Positions 11,923-30,835 of a stretch of DNA of 32,100 bases are shown one piece after another (position 1 is the stretch's first letter; the number at the start of each line of letters is the position of its first letter). A model generated the notes under the pieces. It had not been told where the DNA came from, did no database searches, and saw only the letters and a list, made by a program, of their open reading frames with translations. Position numbers and translations under genes: made by a program. The stretch comes from Actinomycetes bacterium. GTDB lineage: Bacteria; Actinomycetota; Acidimicrobiia; Acidimicrobiales; RAAP-2. The DNA is taken from positions 1 through 32,100 of the forward strand of contig JAJXTB010000016.1 of the NCBI GenBank assembly GCA_021784205.1, written 5' to 3'.

Positions 11923-11939
11923 TGTCCGGACAGTAGGCT
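11923..11939 (+). promoter_or_regulatory. Possible promoter with palindrome before the MgtE-N protein gene
   Basis: A perfect 10-bp palindrome TGTCCGGACA (11923-11932) is followed one base later by TAGGCT (11934-11939), a plausible -10 box. Transcription would begin near 11946, just ahead of the GAGG ribosome site. The palindrome is placed like a repressor or activator site, but short palindromes occur by chance in GC-rich DNA. Confidence 0.3.
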
Positions 11940-11959
11940 TGGGAGGTCTCGAGGTTCGT

Positions 11960-13219
11960 ATGGCCGACATTTTTCACCTCTCAACGTTCCTGCACCGGCC
12001 CATCTTTGATCAGGCCGGTGACCGGATTGGACGCGTCCAGGACCTGGTCGCGCGACTCGGCGACGACGCGCACCCGCCGATCGTGGGCGCGGTGATCCGC
12101 ATCGAGGGTCGGGACCTCTTCATCCCAATCAAGAAGATCGGCGGCCTGGCCGAAGGGCGAGTCACCTTCCAGGGCCGGCGGGTGGATCTGCGCCGCTTCG
12201 AGCGCCGTCCGGGCGAACTGCTGCTCGCCGAGGACCTGCTCGCTCGTCATCTAATCAATCTGGTGCGCGGGCGACTCATCATTGCCAACGAAATCGAGCT
12301 GGCCGAGGTTAACGGACGCTGGGAGGTCATCGGCGTCGACTCGGGCCGCCGCCCGCTCCTGCGTCGGATCTTCGGTCCCGGCATCGCGAGCCACGTCAAG
12401 TCCGAGACACTGGTGGACTTCGCCTCGATCGAGCCCTTCGTCAGTCACGTTCCGACCGCGCGTCTGCGCATCCCCTATCGCAAGCTCGCCAAGCTCCACC
12501 CCGCCCAGATCGCCGATCTCGTCGAACAGGCGAGTCACGAGGAGGGCGAGGAGATCATCGAGGCCGTGGGACTGGATCGAGAGCTCGAGGCCGACGTCTT
12601 CGAAGAGCTCGACACGACTCACCAGCTCGAGTTCCTCGAGGGTCGCAGTGACGTGGACGCGGCGCGCCTGCTCGCACGAATGGAGCCCGACAACGCCGCC
12701 GATCTGATCAGCGAGATCGACCAGGAGCGCCGCATGCCGATTCTGGAAAAGCTTCCCGAGAGCCAACGCACTCGGGTTCGCAACCTGCTGTCCTATAACG
12801 CCGACACGGCGGGCGGGCTGATGAACCTCGACTACGTCTCGGTGGCCGAGGACGCCACCGTCGGCGAGGCCATTGAGGCGATCCGGCGCTCGAGCGCGCC
12901 GACGGAGTCGTTGCACACGGTCTTTGTCCTTGACTGGATGGGACATCCTCTCGGGGCCTGTCCGATCGCGACTCTGGTGCGCACGCGAGAGTCCGAACTG
13001 GCCATCAACGTCGCGCGCACGCACCTCACCCACGTGCACCCCCAGTGGGACCTGCATCGCGTGGCGCGCAAGATGAGCGATTTCAATCTCACCGTCCTGC
13101 CGGTCCTCGACGAAGAGCACGGACAGATGATCGGTGTCGTCACGGTCGACGACCTGCTCGAAGTGATGCTGCCCCAGGGCTGGCGTCGCGAGTTCGGCAT
13201 GAGCGCGGTGGAGGAGTAG
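11960..13219 (+). CDS. Soluble PRC-barrel / MgtE N-domain / CBS-pair protein
   Basis: This encodes 419 residues without membrane segments. Residues 1-165 look like two PRC-barrel repeats (FHLSTFLHRPIFDQAGDRIG; LLARHLINLVRGRLI). Residues 175-280 match the MgtE N-terminal helical domain (LAKLHPAQIADLVEQ, LLARMEPDNAADLISEI), and residues 285-410 form a CBS pair (ADTAGGLMNLDYVSVAEDATVGEAI, FNLTVLPVLDEEHGQMIGVVTVDDLLEVM). In MgtE these two cytosolic domains bind Mg2+ and gate the channel; the channel itself is missing here. It most likely acts as a Mg2+- or nucleotide-responsive partner of the Nramp-type transporter encoded next. The start at 11960 is preferred over 11939 because of the GAGG site before it. 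Confidence 0.85.
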   Translation: MADIFHLSTFLHRPIFDQAGDRIGRVQDLVARLGDDAHPPIVGAVIRIEGRDLFIPIKKIGGLAEGRVTFQGRRVDLRRFERRPGELLLAEDLLARHLINLVRGRLIIANEIELAEVNGRWEVIGVDSGRRPLLRRIFGPGIASHVKSETLVDFASIEPFVSHVPTARLRIPYRKLAKLHPAQIADLVEQASHEEGEEIIEAVGLDRELEADVFEELDTTHQLEFLEGRSDVDAARLLARMEPDNAADLISEIDQERRMPILEKLPESQRTRVRNLLSYNADTAGGLMNLDYVSVAEDATVGEAIEAIRRSSAPTESLHTVFVLDWMGHPLGACPIATLVRTRESELAINVARTHLTHVHPQWDLHRVARKMSDFNLTVLPVLDEEHGQMIGVVTVDDLLEVMLPQGWRREFGMSAVEE

Positions 13220-13226
13220 TGCGCTG

Positions 13227-13374
13227 CGCGGGTCACGTTCTAAGGGGGTCTGTCTGAAACCCCCGAGTACCGGCTTGCCGGTTCCTTCCCTCACGCACCC
13301 GCGACACGGACTTCAGGGCGACTAGCGCCTCCTGATCGTCGTGGCTGCGTGTCACGACGATCCGAAAGGAGGTG
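13227..13374 (+). promoter_or_regulatory. Structured leader RNA, candidate riboswitch, before the Nramp-type gene
   Basis: The 159-bp gap holds a coherent set of helices. CGCGGGT (13227-13233) pairs with ACCCGCG (13297-13303), enclosing GGGGGT/ACCCCC (13244-13249 with 13259-13264) and ACCGGC/GCCGGT (13269-13274 with 13277-13282): a three-stem junction. Downstream, CGCCTCCT then GATCGTCGTG (13326-13343) pair with CACGACGATC (13353-13362) and, after a CGAA bulge, with AGGAGGTG (13367-13374), which is the Shine-Dalgarno of the next gene. GGGCG (13316-13320) can instead pair with CGCCT (13326-13330), freeing the Shine-Dalgarno. The hairpin loop TGCGTG (13346-13351) could also pair with CACGCA (13292-13297). 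All pairings were found by eye. The ligand is unknown; Mg2+ or another metal is the natural guess from the genes. Confidence 0.65.
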
Positions 13375-13378
13375 GGCG

Positions 13379-14959
13379 GTGTCCCGCGAACGTGTTTCCG
13401 ATAATCAGATCAGCGGCGCCTTCGGGACCATCGCCGAGCACGACTCGGGCGCGCGCCGTGGCGTGCGCGCGCGCCTACTGACGCTTCTCGCCATCATCGG
13501 ACCGGGTCTCATCGTGATGGTCGGGGACAACGACGCCGGTGGCGTCTCGACGTACGTCCAGGCTGGTCAGAACTTCGGGTATTCGTTGTTGTGGACGTTG
13601 CCACTCCTGATCCCAGTTCTGATTATCAATCAGGAAATGGTCGCGCGACTAGGAGCGGTCACCGGCGTCGGACACGGCCGGCTGATTCGCGAGCGCTTTG
13701 GTCGGCGCTGGGGCAACGTCTCGATCGGTTCGATCCTCCTACTCAACTTTCTCATCATCATCACCGAATTCATCGGCATATCACTGTCGATGCGTTACTT
13801 CGGCGTGTCGCCGTACCTCTCGGTGCCGGTCGCGGTCTTCGTGCTCTTCGCCGTGACGGCCACCGGGTCCTTCCAACGCTGGGAGCGGTTCATGATGCTC
13901 TTTGTTGCCGTCAATTTTCTCGTCATTCCTCTCGTGGTCCTCGCGCACCCTCGTCTGCACGCCGTCGTCAGCCACGCCGTTTCGCCCAGCGTGCGTGGCG
14001 GTGTCACGTCGTCATCGGTGTTGCTCATCATCTCGATCATCGGGACAACCGTCGCGCCCTGGCAGCTCTACTTTCAGCAGTCCAACATCGTCGACAAGAG
14101 AATTACCCCGCGATGGCTGAACTACGAGCGGATCGACACGGTGCTTGGCAGCTTCATCGTCGTCATCGGCGCGGGTGCCCTCGTCGCCGCGGCCGCCGCA
14201 GGACTCTCCGGGCATGGCGGAACGAACAGTTACATCAACGCACTGGAGGTGGCTCACGGGCTTCGCCGCTACGTCGGGCACGGTTCGGGTGCACTGTTCG
14301 CGATCTTGCTGCTCAACGCGTCAGTCATCGGTGCCGCCGCGGTGACCCTCGCGAGCTCCTACGCCCTCTCGGACCTCTCAGGGGCGCGCCAGTCGCTCAA
14401 CTCGCGTCTGGTTGAAGCGAAGGGCTTTTACAGCGTCTTCGCGGGCCTGCTGGTCGTGGCCGGGGCCGTCACCCTGATTCCCGGCGCGCCCCTCGGACTG
14501 ATTACTCTCGCGGTGCAGGCCATGTGCGGATTGATGTTGCCAAGCACCACGATCTTCGTGCTGTTGCTGTGCAACGATCGCGAGGTCCTGGGTCCCTGGG
14601 TCAACGGGCGACTTCTCAACGCGGCCGCGAGCGTCGTTGTGACCGTGCTCGTCGTGCTGTCGATCACCATGATGGTGTCCACACTCTTCTCATCGGTGAA
14701 CGTCATTGGCATGTTGAAGGTCCTCTCGATTGCCGCGGTCGTGGGACTCGTGATTGGCTTGCCGCTGGCCTGGCGTCGACGCGGTCCTGAACCCGTTTAC
14801 GGCGTCGACCGGCGCGACTGGCGTACACCACGGCTCACGTTGCTCGCGCCGCCACCGGCGACGCGTTCGCGGCGGGTGCTCTTTGGCGCGGTGGGCACCT
14901 ACCTGGCTGTTGCGGGTGTGCTGCTGGCCGTGCGAATCATCCAACTCGCGTCCTCCTAA
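13379..14959 (+). CDS. Nramp-family divalent metal transporter with altered metal site
   Basis: This encodes 526 residues with about eleven hydrophobic segments in the Nramp/SLC11 pattern. Helix 1 carries GDNDAGGVSTYVQAGQNFGY (D50 onward) where classical Nramp proteins have DPGN, and helix 6 carries TTVAPWQLYF (A226, P227, W228) where they have a methionine followed by PH. The methionine that selects Mn2+ and Fe2+ is thus replaced, so Mg2+ or another hard cation is more likely; Mg2+-transporting relatives of this family are known. The GTG start at 13379 is chosen because AAAGGAGG lies six bases upstream; an in-frame GTG at 13349 sits inside the leader hairpin. The preceding MgtE-N/CBS protein and the structured leader suggest control by cellular metal level. 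Confidence 0.85.
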   Translation: MSRERVSDNQISGAFGTIAEHDSGARRGVRARLLTLLAIIGPGLIVMVGDNDAGGVSTYVQAGQNFGYSLLWTLPLLIPVLIINQEMVARLGAVTGVGHGRLIRERFGRRWGNVSIGSILLLNFLIIITEFIGISLSMRYFGVSPYLSVPVAVFVLFAVTATGSFQRWERFMMLFVAVNFLVIPLVVLAHPRLHAVVSHAVSPSVRGGVTSSSVLLIISIIGTTVAPWQLYFQQSNIVDKRITPRWLNYERIDTVLGSFIVVIGAGALVAAAAAGLSGHGGTNSYINALEVAHGLRRYVGHGSGALFAILLLNASVIGAAAVTLASSYALSDLSGARQSLNSRLVEAKGFYSVFAGLLVVAGAVTLIPGAPLGLITLAVQAMCGLMLPSTTIFVLLLCNDREVLGPWVNGRLLNAAASVVVTVLVVLSITMMVSTLFSSVNVIGMLKVLSIAAVVGLVIGLPLAWRRRGPEPVYGVDRRDWRTPRLTLLAPPPATRSRRVLFGAVGTYLAVAGVLLAVRIIQLASS

Positions 14960-14968
14960 TCTCGTGGG

Positions 14969-15784
14969 GTGACTGATACCCCCACCCTCGTCTGTGTGCA
15001 CGCCCACCCTGACGACGAGGCCCTCTTCACCGGAGGGGCCACGTCGCGCTACGCGGCGCTCGGCTATCGCGTGGTGCTCGTGACCTGCACCAACGGCCAG
15101 TACGGGATCGACCCGGCCGGACGCGCCGGCGACGACCCCACCCATGACACGCCGGCCACGCGCGCGACCCGCGCGAGCGAGCTGCAGGTGGCGGCTCGCT
15201 TGGTGGGTTACGAGCGCCTGGTGAACCTGGGATTCGACGACTCGGGCATGGCCGGATGGCCCCAGAACCACGCGCCCAACGCCTTTACCAACTGCGACGT
15301 CGAGGCGAGCGCGGCGGTGCTCGCGAGTCTCTTCGACGAGGTGGGGGCCAGTGTTGTTCTCACCTACGACGAGAACGGCTTCTACGGACATCCTGACCAC
15401 GTGATGGCTAATCGCGTCGCGCGCCGTGCGGTGGACCTCGCCGCGTCGCCCGAGCGTCTGTACTACACGATCGTGCCCCAGAGTGTGCTCACCGACTTCG
15501 TGCCCGACGCCCACGAGCTCGAGATCTTCCTGCCGGCGTGGGTCCTCGAGGCGGGCATCGGCGTGGCCGACGATCTGGTGGCCACAACACTCGACGTGAC
15601 CGACTTCGTTGACGTGAAGCAGGCGGCCATCGCCGCGCACGCGAGCCAGATCGACAACGCGGACCTCGTCTCGATGGACCGGTCGCTCTTTCTCACGCTC
15701 TTTGGCACCGAGTACTATCAGCGCGCCTGGTCGAGACAAGTGGCGAGCGGCGACGAGAGCGACCTGTTCGGAGGGTTGTCATGA
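14969..15784 (+). CDS. PIG-L/LmbE-family deacetylase, first of a tandem pair
   Basis: This encodes 271 residues. The family signature is VCVHAHPDDE (zinc ligands H13 and D16) with a third ligand in FYGHPDH (H144 region), and VTCTNGQYG after the second strand. PIG-L enzymes are zinc-dependent N-deacetylases of amino sugars; in Actinobacteria they include MshB and Mca of mycothiol synthesis and recycling. The sequence alone does not distinguish these. The start is a GTG nine bases after the Nramp-type stop codon, so the gene probably shares that transcript. The stop overlaps the second deacetylase gene by four bases (ATGA). Confidence 0.85.
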   Translation: MTDTPTLVCVHAHPDDEALFTGGATSRYAALGYRVVLVTCTNGQYGIDPAGRAGDDPTHDTPATRATRASELQVAARLVGYERLVNLGFDDSGMAGWPQNHAPNAFTNCDVEASAAVLASLFDEVGASVVLTYDENGFYGHPDHVMANRVARRAVDLAASPERLYYTIVPQSVLTDFVPDAHELEIFLPAWVLEAGIGVADDLVATTLDVTDFVDVKQAAIAAHASQIDNADLVSMDRSLFLTLFGTEYYQRAWSRQVASGDESDLFGGLS

Positions 15785-16635
15785 CACTCACCTTCATGGC
15801 GGTGCACGCGCACCCCGACGACGAGGCGAGCTCGACTGGGGGCCTCTTGCGGGTCCTCGCAGACCAGGGTGTGCGCACCGTGCTCGTGACCTGCACCAAC
15901 GGCGAGTACGGCGACGCCCCGGGCGGCGTGAAGCCCGGCGACGACGGACACGACGCCGACGAGGTCGCCGCACTGCGCGAGGGCGAGCTCGACGCGGCCG
16001 TCGCCATCCTCGGGGTCTCGCGCCTCGTGCGCCTGGGATATCGCGACTCGGGGATGATGGGCTGGCCCCAGAACGACGACCCGCGCTCCTTTTGGTCGAG
16101 CGACGTCGCCGAGGCCGCCGCGCGGCTCGCCGCGGTAATGGCCGAGGAGCGCCCCCAGGTTGTCGTCACCTACAACGAGGTCGGCTTCTACGGCCACCCC
16201 GATCACATCCAGGCCCACCGGATCACGCTCGCGGCCATTGCCTCGCTCGACTACGAGCCCACTCTCTATTTCAACGCCATCCCATCGAGCGTGATGAAGA
16301 TCTACGAGGCCCGCTGGGCTGAGGAGGAGAAGCGCCGCCGCGCCGAGGACGAGGCCAAGGGGATCGTGCGCGAGCCCGACCCGGCCGACGAGGCCGAAGG
16401 GATTGACATGGCGACTCCGGACGAGGAGATCGCGGTCACCGTGGACGTCTCGAGCGCGGCCGACGCCAAGTTTGACGCGCTCGCCGCGCACCACTCTCAG
16501 ATCGGCGACTCGTTCTGGATCCGCCAGGGCCGCGAGGAATTCCGGCGCACGAGTGGGCGTGAGTGGTTCGTGCGCGCGCGCAACCCGCTGGGACTGAGCG
16601 GCGCCGCGCAGGACATCTTCGTGGGCTATCGCTGA
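15781..16635 (+). CDS. PIG-L/LmbE-family deacetylase, second of a tandem pair
   Basis: This encodes 284 residues, a paralogue of the preceding protein: it shares HAHPDDE (H11, D14), VTCTNGEYG, DSGMMGWPQND and FYGHPDH (H142 region). It differs by a charged insert around residues 178-205 (EEEKRRRAEDEAKG) and a longer C-terminus with HHSQIGDSFWI, a feature reminiscent of mycothiol conjugate amidase Mca. If so, it would cleave mycothiol conjugates in detoxification while the first copy may act on another amino sugar; this division is inferred. Translation is coupled to the first copy through the ATGA overlap. Confidence 0.85.
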   Translation: MTLTFMAVHAHPDDEASSTGGLLRVLADQGVRTVLVTCTNGEYGDAPGGVKPGDDGHDADEVAALREGELDAAVAILGVSRLVRLGYRDSGMMGWPQNDDPRSFWSSDVAEAAARLAAVMAEERPQVVVTYNEVGFYGHPDHIQAHRITLAAIASLDYEPTLYFNAIPSSVMKIYEARWAEEEKRRRAEDEAKGIVREPDPADEAEGIDMATPDEEIAVTVDVSSAADAKFDALAAHHSQIGDSFWIRQGREEFRRTSGREWFVRARNPLGLSGAAQDIFVGYR

Positions 16636-30760: not shown

Positions 30761-30835
30761 GCCCTCGTAGCTCAGGGGATAGAGCATCGGTTTCCTAAAC
30801 CGTGAGCGCAGGTTCGAATCCTGCCGGGGGCACCA
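30761..30835 (+). tRNA. tRNA-Arg (anticodon CCT)
   Basis: The cloverleaf is complete. The acceptor arms GCCCTCG and CGGGGGC pair with one T-G wobble; the D arm is GCTC/GAGC; the anticodon loop TTCCTAA (30792-30798) places CCT at positions 34-36; the T arm is GCAGG-TTCGAAT-CCTGC. The discriminator is A and CCA is encoded (30833-30835). The outermost pair of the anticodon stem is a T-T mismatch. It reads AGG codons. An IS481-family element begins five bases after the tRNA. Confidence 0.95.

Follow-up and report, generated by a model that had tools for sequence, protein, structure and literature searches.

A candidate leader-ORF translational attenuator with two overlapping small ORFs between an MgtE_N/CBS gene and an NRMT-type transporter gene

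Introduction

The leader ORFs mgtL, mgtP and mgtQ, which precede genes of magnesium transport, were described in enterobacteria. In Salmonella, mgtQ is an ORF of 8 amino acids located between mgtC and mgtB; in the sections of PMC8092293 considered here, the stem-loop 2:3 frees the ribosome site of mgtB, the alternative stem-loop 3:4 hides it, and the proline codon as such is not needed. MgtL, the leader of mgtA, contains the sequence EPDP and depends on an intrinsic destabilisation of the ribosome at low Mg2+ (excerpt of PMC11282234). On the transporter side, an MgtE-like fragment beside nrmT has previously been described, and one relative with an MgtE fragment and without an M-box looked Mn2+-specific (available part of PMC4072509).

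The locus presented here shares features with each of these systems. As for mgtQ, a predicted small ORF separates two genes of a putative magnesium operon, competing stem-loops would free or hide the ribosome site of a transporter, and the early residues of the peptide are proposed to decide the outcome. Compared with the same sections on mgtQ, the phylum, the peptide and the transporter (NRMT here, MgtB there) are different, the window displays two overlapping ORFs, a CTG start and an anti-sequestor strand included in the ORF, and Pro-Pro-Ser stands against Asp2 and Glu5 of mgtQ. With MgtL, as the excerpt presents it, the locus would have in common early proline codons in the predicted leader of a putative Mg2+ transporter, and a related NRMT clade has EPPS or DPPS in 5/7 leaders; unlike MgtL, the second small ORF of the window has no acidic residue near its start, and MgtL acts through Rho-dependent transcription termination whereas in the window the ribosome site would be masked. 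The nrmT loci with an M-box, in the available part of PMC4072509, contain the same gene pair, an MgtE cytoplasmic-domain protein and an Nramp-related transporter; unlike in these loci, the M-box was not found in the window and the proposed control element is intergenic. The Mtb pe20 Mbox with its conserved small ORF rv1805A (part of PMC12810186) likewise belongs to Actinomycetota and unites, in a Mg2+ locus, small ORFs and an expression platform acting on translation, a likeness of layout; unlike the window, pe20 has an Mbox aptamer.

Searches of the open-access literature brought up no leader ORF for an NRMT gene. The accessible portion of PMC11611912 does not mention PPS and that of PMC8632094 names no Nramp motif. 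If the working proposed below is true, a sensor based on the ribosome would have arisen once more, without relation to the known ones, before a magnesium-type transporter and in a lineage far from the enterobacteria.

The locus and its neighbouring genes

The window (the whole stretch of 32,100 nucleotides that was analysed) contains on its forward strand a gene coding for a soluble MgtE-like protein with MgtE_N and CBS domains (11939..13219 in the ORF list, start codon uncertain; Pfam E-values of 2e-20 for MgtE_N and 2e-13 for CBS). A gap of 159 bases (13220-13378) separates it from the gene of an Nramp-type transporter (13379..14959, forward strand, GTG start; Pfam Nramp, E-value 4.5e-75), whose Shine-Dalgarno site AAAGGAGGT is localized at 13365..13373 on the same strand. 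The closest solved structure is 7qia (E-value 1.2e-62), which we take to be the NRMT of Eggerthella lenta, and the residues NDAGG and GTT-APW are identical in both proteins. According to PMC8806188, NRMTs carry DxxG in their first helix and TxxA/T in helix 6; the DAGG and TTVA of the window protein align with the DAGG and TTIA of 7qia. By its sequence, the transporter is of the NRMT type and may transport Mg2+. The sequence-only reading had linked the gap to metals from its two neighbours, and the NRMT-type transporter beside the MgtE_N/CBS protein agrees with that link.

The nearest genome (G001) has 96% of sampled words in common with the window. The records that carry the same locus are mostly labelled Acidimicrobiaceae, Actinomycetes or uncultured actinobacterium, and a few are labelled Acidobacteria or Saccharibacteria. 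On the 3' side of the transporter, two genes of the PIG-L family (GlcNAc-PI de-N-acetylase) occupy 14969-16635 and overlap by four bases.

Collection of the leaders

Transporter loci were gathered by protein searches in 61 relatives and 247 genomes of the class. The sequence [A/C/T]TGAA[A/G]CCNCCNAG[T/C] is present in 43/43 same-genus loci tested. These correspond to L001-L034, L041, L129-L135 and L137 (L136 and L032 being one and the same locus); the second paralog of G001 and the loci of G003 and G005, which are partial matches only, were left out. Four same-genus loci outside this list (L143, L179, L194 and L195) also show the ORF. With the pattern GRGGN6TGAARCCYCCNAGTAC, 87 stretches were recovered from 84,980 species genomes, of which 83 adjoin a homologue of MgtE_N, of NRMT or of both; the four others (L046, L053, L063 and L128) are beside neither gene and look like chance matches. 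The motif GARCCNCCNAGTACCTGG, scanned in 296 genomes of the phylum, gave one match, in a locus of 3018 bases from which NRMT is absent.

Together with the window, 129 sequences were obtained. The end of the MgtE_N gene was found in 119 of them, which yielded 90 unique leaders; 88 contain the motif, and the two that lack it (L035 and L036) come from other families. The loci fetched later are excluded from the set of 88. The motif is localized 274-436 nt before the NRMT match in L048, L052, L056, L069 (= L033), L072, L075, L082, L087 (= L034), L088, L105 and L113. In L033, this space seemingly contains an extra small ORF, joined by eye to the transporter via TGATG.

Two overlapping small ORFs in the gap

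By sequence comparison, the gap is composed of two overlapping small ORFs and of two hairpins competing for an anti-Shine-Dalgarno arm. The sequence-only reading had considered the 5' part as the sensor of a riboswitch; we find there the marks of a coding sequence instead. The first predicted ORF, sORF1 (VRCAGHVLRGSV*, 13219..13257, forward strand), has 12 codons followed by TGA. Its GTG start overlaps the TAG stop of the MgtE_N/CBS gene, of which the last codons, GTG GAG GAG, may serve sORF1 as Shine-Dalgarno site. In the relatives, the start takes the form ATGA, GTGA, TAATG or TAGTG at the MgtE_N stop or is found a few bases later, and the ORF ends with the TGA included in CTGAAAC. In 86/88 leaders, an ATG or GTG is open through to this TGA, vs 12/88 in each shifted frame; the two exceptions (L028 and L120) have TGATGA, the search pattern having taken the second TGA and the first being in frame with a start. 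The distance between the MgtE_N stop and the TGA takes 13 values, from 32 to 56, and 80/88 leaders fall in one frame. With a tree of the MgtE_N proteins of 85 leaders and one most-parsimonious assignment, 23 of the 28 changes in length are by a multiple of 3 (binomial 1.5e-7). In another genus, the sORF1 of L139 and of L141 end with EERGSF* through different synonymous codons, and L191 shows the layout TAATG ... CTGA.

A strict conservation of the amino acids V[LQ]RG in sORF1 was considered and rejected: L085, L092, L101 and L127 read this stretch in another frame, their sORF1 start and TGA being nonetheless in frame. The motif GTTC[T/A]A (GTTCTA, 13237-13242 in the window), on the 5' side of the Shine-Dalgarno-like site of the second ORF, is nearly invariant within the genus and is not seen in L139, L141 and L191; it is poorly explained by coding or by pairing.

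The second predicted ORF, sORF2 (MKPPSTGLPVPSLTHPRHGLQGD*, 13254..13325, forward strand), is composed of a CTG start, 23 codons in all and a TAG. Its product is MKPPST followed by 17 residues, its start overlaps the sORF1 stop as C-TGA, and its Shine-Dalgarno-like site AAGGGGG (13242..13248, forward strand; AAGGAGG in some relatives) is included in sORF1. CTG starts are unusual; here the start codon is CTG in 83 of the 88 leaders, ATG in 4 and TTG in 1. In the same 88 leaders, Lys is coded by AAA (86) or AAG (2), the first Pro by CCC (81) or CCT (7), the second Pro by CCN (21 G, 42 T, 13 C and 12 A) and Ser by AGT (88/88), the next codon being mostly ACC. The apparent hole N in the RNA core is the wobble base of a proline codon. 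AGT belongs to the pattern with which many of the loci were collected; it is also present in all 35 loci of alignment A1, which came from the protein search, and represents only 11.9% of the Ser codons in the neighbouring gene. The first stop in the sORF2 frame is found at a median of 75 nt in 85 leaders, with a standard deviation of 6.9 nt, which rises to 58 and 98 nt when the other two frames are read. Codons 7-16 are free of stops in 85/85 leaders in this frame, vs 58/85 and 56/85 in the others. By eye, the sORF2 stop lies just 5' of the anti-Shine-Dalgarno arm. No protein conservation was detected in the 88 leaders beyond MKPPST. A fusion of sORF1 and sORF2 by frameshift was rejected, no conserved slippery site being seen by eye.

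Judged from these alignments, the conserved "core" is for the most part made up of a start codon with its Shine-Dalgarno-like site and of the codons for Lys-Pro-Pro-Ser-Thr. A coding constraint can masquerade as a riboswitch core when it is read as RNA alone. Two other candidates were considered. A DNA operator (the palindrome GGGGGT-N-ACCCCC) was rejected because the loop and one flank, conserved on one strand only, read as a start codon and codons. An ECF-type promoter (TGAAAC) was also rejected, with no conserved -10 by eye.

Hairpins upstream of the transporter

The hairpin GGGGGU/ACCCCC (13244..13264, forward strand), a perfect complement between 13244-13249 and 13259-13264, contains the sORF1 stop and the sORF2 start in its loop. 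Its fold has a z of -1.7 (12/200 shuffles as good). In the alignment, 98.9% of its cells are paired, and it displays little covariation since 3/5 pairs never vary; among the partners, GGAGG meets CCTCC in 4 leaders and CCCCC in 5. This hairpin may make the initiation of sORF2 depend on the translation of sORF1.

The sequestering (OFF) hairpin pairs 13326-13345 with 13351-13374 (forward strand) and hides the Shine-Dalgarno site of the transporter. We count 20 pairs, where the sequence-only reading gave 18; the CGAA bulge and the masking that it described are found again, and none of the 200 shuffles is as good (z = -5.5). The anti-sequestor (ON) hairpin pairs 13292-13320 with 13326-13351 (forward strand), its 5' strand being inside sORF2 and the stop of this ORF at its apex; the alternative fold 13290-13354 has a z of -3.4 (1/200 shuffles as good). 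In this hairpin, GGGCG (13316-13320) faces the anti-Shine-Dalgarno CGCCT (13326-13330), and CACGCA (13292-13297) faces TGCGTG (13346-13351). Both pairings had been anticipated, and the latter corresponds to a conserved long-range helix: with RNAalifold, only the GGGGG/CCCCC hairpin and the helix ACAACC/GGTTGT, between sORF2 codons and the arm of the sequestering hairpin, are recovered from A1 (35 leaders). This helix is paired in 90.0% of cells. For the core and the long-range helix taken together, 0/500 shuffles reach the percentage of pairing, the changes on both sides or the covariation score in the 35 leaders, while the changed pairs are reached by 25/500 and the pair types by 62/500.

For the analyses of stop position, pairing and folding, the first Shine-Dalgarno site 3' of sORF2 was taken in each leader and L119, which has no such site, was dropped; in about 11/84 leaders the transporter is further on, so the site taken may belong to another small ORF. 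Without alignment, the pairing in 84 leaders amounts to -18.9 kcal/mol with the own partner (self), vs -16.9 with the partners of other leaders (cross) and -15.4 with shuffled sequences; self exceeds the cross mean in 65/84 leaders and the own shuffles in 75/84. Permutations of self vs cross were done on 19 representatives below 62% identity, chosen from 77 leaders (7/84 were dropped for short segments). The observed value is matched in 8/5000 permutations for the anti-sequestor, in 0/5000 for the sequestor and in 815/5000 for P1, and the own partner is the single best of 19 in 2, 6 and 3 representatives, respectively.

P1, the closing stem of the proposed three-stem aptamer, behaves differently. 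Its strands in the window, CGCGGGT (13227-13233) and ACCCGCG (13297-13303), are perfectly complementary, as claimed. On 35 leaders, 45.5% of its cells are paired vs 19-52% when the partners are slid by -2 to +2 columns, which is no better than these controls, and, depending on the measure, between 32 and 233 of 500 shuffles come up to the observed values. The three-stem "sensor" domain is marginal in the window (z = -2.1, 5/200 shuffles as good). The comparison thus supports the sequestor and its mutually exclusive partner, hence a translational switch before the Nramp-type gene, and does not keep P1; with most of the core explained by sORF2 signals and codons, the aptamer part of the earlier proposal is not supported. 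By eye, it had not found the cores of M-box and yybP-ykoY, and this agrees with Rfam: at the gathering score, Rfam detects over the whole window only a tRNA (30761-30832), and up to an E-value of 10 in 13100-13450 only one match, asX1, with an E-value of 5 on the other strand.

In the full leader, the balance is in favour of OFF: the median difference in stability from ON is 19.4 kcal/mol, and three or more of the five Shine-Dalgarno bases are paired in 75/84 leaders. ON must therefore be kinetic. Before the 3' arm exists, the U:D pairs have a median of 15 vs a mean of 7.8 for shuffled U, which they exceed in 62/84 leaders; at least 6 such pairs are found in 63/84, fewer than 6 in 21/84, and none in L080 and L099.

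Proposed working and alternative explanations

We consider it rather probable, from the comparison of sequences, that the gap acts as a translational attenuator of the leader-ORF type, similar to mgtQ in its working and unrelated to it in sequence. The predicted ORFs are included between two metal-transport genes of a putative operon, and the mutually exclusive anti-sequestor and sequestor are supported by both comparative and thermodynamic data. Two adjacent Pro codons occupy positions 3-4 of the predicted sORF2 and would, if it is translated, recall the early prolines of the MgtL and MgtP leaders, and the early Asp or Glu codons of the mgtQ type were not found in the window, where sORF2 starts with MKPPST and KPPS is non-acidic. 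Ribosomes leaving the upstream gene would re-initiate on sORF1, and the translation of sORF1 would open the GGGGG/CCCCC hairpin and supply ribosomes to sORF2, whose CTG start is weak. Translation of sORF2 up to its stop would melt the anti-sequestor, whose 5' strand corresponds to codons 13-23 with the stop at the apex; the freed arm would then mask the Shine-Dalgarno site in front of the transporter gene (OFF). If instead the ribosome were stalled or lost early, on the codons for Lys-Pro-Pro-Ser-Thr, the anti-sequestor would stay intact and the transporter would be made (ON). By analogy with MgtL, whose EPDP acts at low Mg2+, and with Pro-Pro early here, the signal would most likely be a low level of Mg2+ (or Mn2+) that weakens ribosomes on the early proline codons and slows the reading of Pro-Pro-Ser.

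The folding of 84 leaders with ribosome footprints at equilibrium does not display the effect expected from a stall at PPS: the median accessibility of the Shine-Dalgarno site is 0.21 in the naked leader, 0.21 with a ribosome at PPS and 0.21 with a ribosome on codons 10-20. Only the footprint at the sORF2 stop raises it, to 0.41, with 24/84 leaders above 0.5 (from 0.007 to 0.39 in the window). For this reason, a plain translational coupling represents the main rival. The ribosome terminating at the sORF2 stop would cover the anti-Shine-Dalgarno arm and turn the transporter ON, sORF1 and sORF2 would form a relay from the upstream gene, and Pro-Pro-Ser would only set the flow. The near-constant position of the stop, by eye just before this arm, also fits. 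Such a coupling leaves unexplained, however, why an anti-sequestor is kept inside sORF2 and why Pro-Pro-Ser comes early, and we regard it as unlikely, while giving it more weight than the other alternatives.

Concerning these, the attenuator competes with a new metal riboswitch, in which the 5' part would bind an ion and select between the two hairpins. The metal genes on both sides of the gap, the M-box control of NrmT genes (mostly in Clostridia and Deltaproteobacteria, in the available part of PMC4072509) and a nucleotide conservation at the genus level beyond the need of coding (GTTC, the AGT codon) would all suit it. Yet there is no Rfam match, P1 is not conserved, the stretch between the core hairpin and the switch is variable, and most of the conserved positions can be read as a Shine-Dalgarno-like site, a start and codons, with a constraint on the frame from start to stop. 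The sensor region is unlikely to be a riboswitch aptamer, and we rate this explanation as highly improbable. In another alternative, the products of the small ORFs would themselves be functional, as a transporter subunit for instance, and the hairpins would set only the level of expression. In its favour, MKPPST is conserved and the two genes that flank the ORFs share their strand, but the residues beyond MKPPST vary although the RNA pairing is kept, and no hydrophobic stretch is seen by eye; we give this explanation the least credit of all.

Leader peptides in other NRMT clades

We looked through 395 genomes of the class for a second NRMT clade, that of L150 (the G001 paralog) and its relatives. 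In 7/7 of its loci (at least 66% identity), the transporter gene is preceded by a PPS leader with an ATG or GTG start and a Shine-Dalgarno site: MRTEPPSRW, MRSEPPSSR, MKSDPPSTW, MKSEPPSTC, MKLEPPSTW, MRQPPSTW and VLSQPPSTR. An acidic residue precedes PP in 5/7 of these leaders, as EPPS or DPPS. No MgtE_N match was detected in the loci of this clade. L150 itself, on contig 68 of G001, is the second NRMT gene of the nearest genome and has its own EPPSRW leader, without an MgtE_N match. The Ser codon AGT (13266-13268 in the window) is common to the 88 leaders of the genus, to L139, L141 and L191, and to 7/7 leaders of the distant clade.

Among 27 NRMT loci outside the genus, one (L149) has a clear PPS leader. 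In another set of 21 such loci, L191 has KPPSI and L178 has MEPPDT, the others having none or a loosely similar ORF. Nothing convincing was found at the NRMT loci L138/L175, L142/L177, L144/L197, L145, L147, L180, L183-L185, L189 and the family f90 (L153-L157), and L146, L148, L152, L190, L193 and L037 display only loosely similar ORFs, some of them recognized by eye. Since these other loci show either nothing convincing or loose similarity, the peptide is patchy in its distribution; the sequences also indicate that it is old.

We tentatively propose, as a possibility in which we place less confidence than in the attenuator itself, a family of metal-sensing leader peptides with the core [E/D/Q/K]-Pro-Pro-Ser(AGU)-[Thr/Ser/Arg]. 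It would control NRMT transporters in several families of the class of the window, would be independent of MgtL and mgtQ, would replace the M-box and would need both the AGU codon and the peptide; in the lineage of the window, its CUG start would be conserved and would receive ribosomes from the ORF that overlaps it on the 5' side. What is new is probably the lineage, the peptides and the unusual tandem overlap, the mgtQ-like kind of attenuator being already known. With 88 unique leaders and a distant clade, the signal-sensing codons are directly testable.

Finally, in L175, L177, L182 and L186, a small ORF with a CTG start is found behind AAGGAGCA or AAGGAGTA, 200-280 nt before NRMT. These four ORFs start alike (LDAD, LSAG, LHADP and LSAD) and perhaps represent another leader family.
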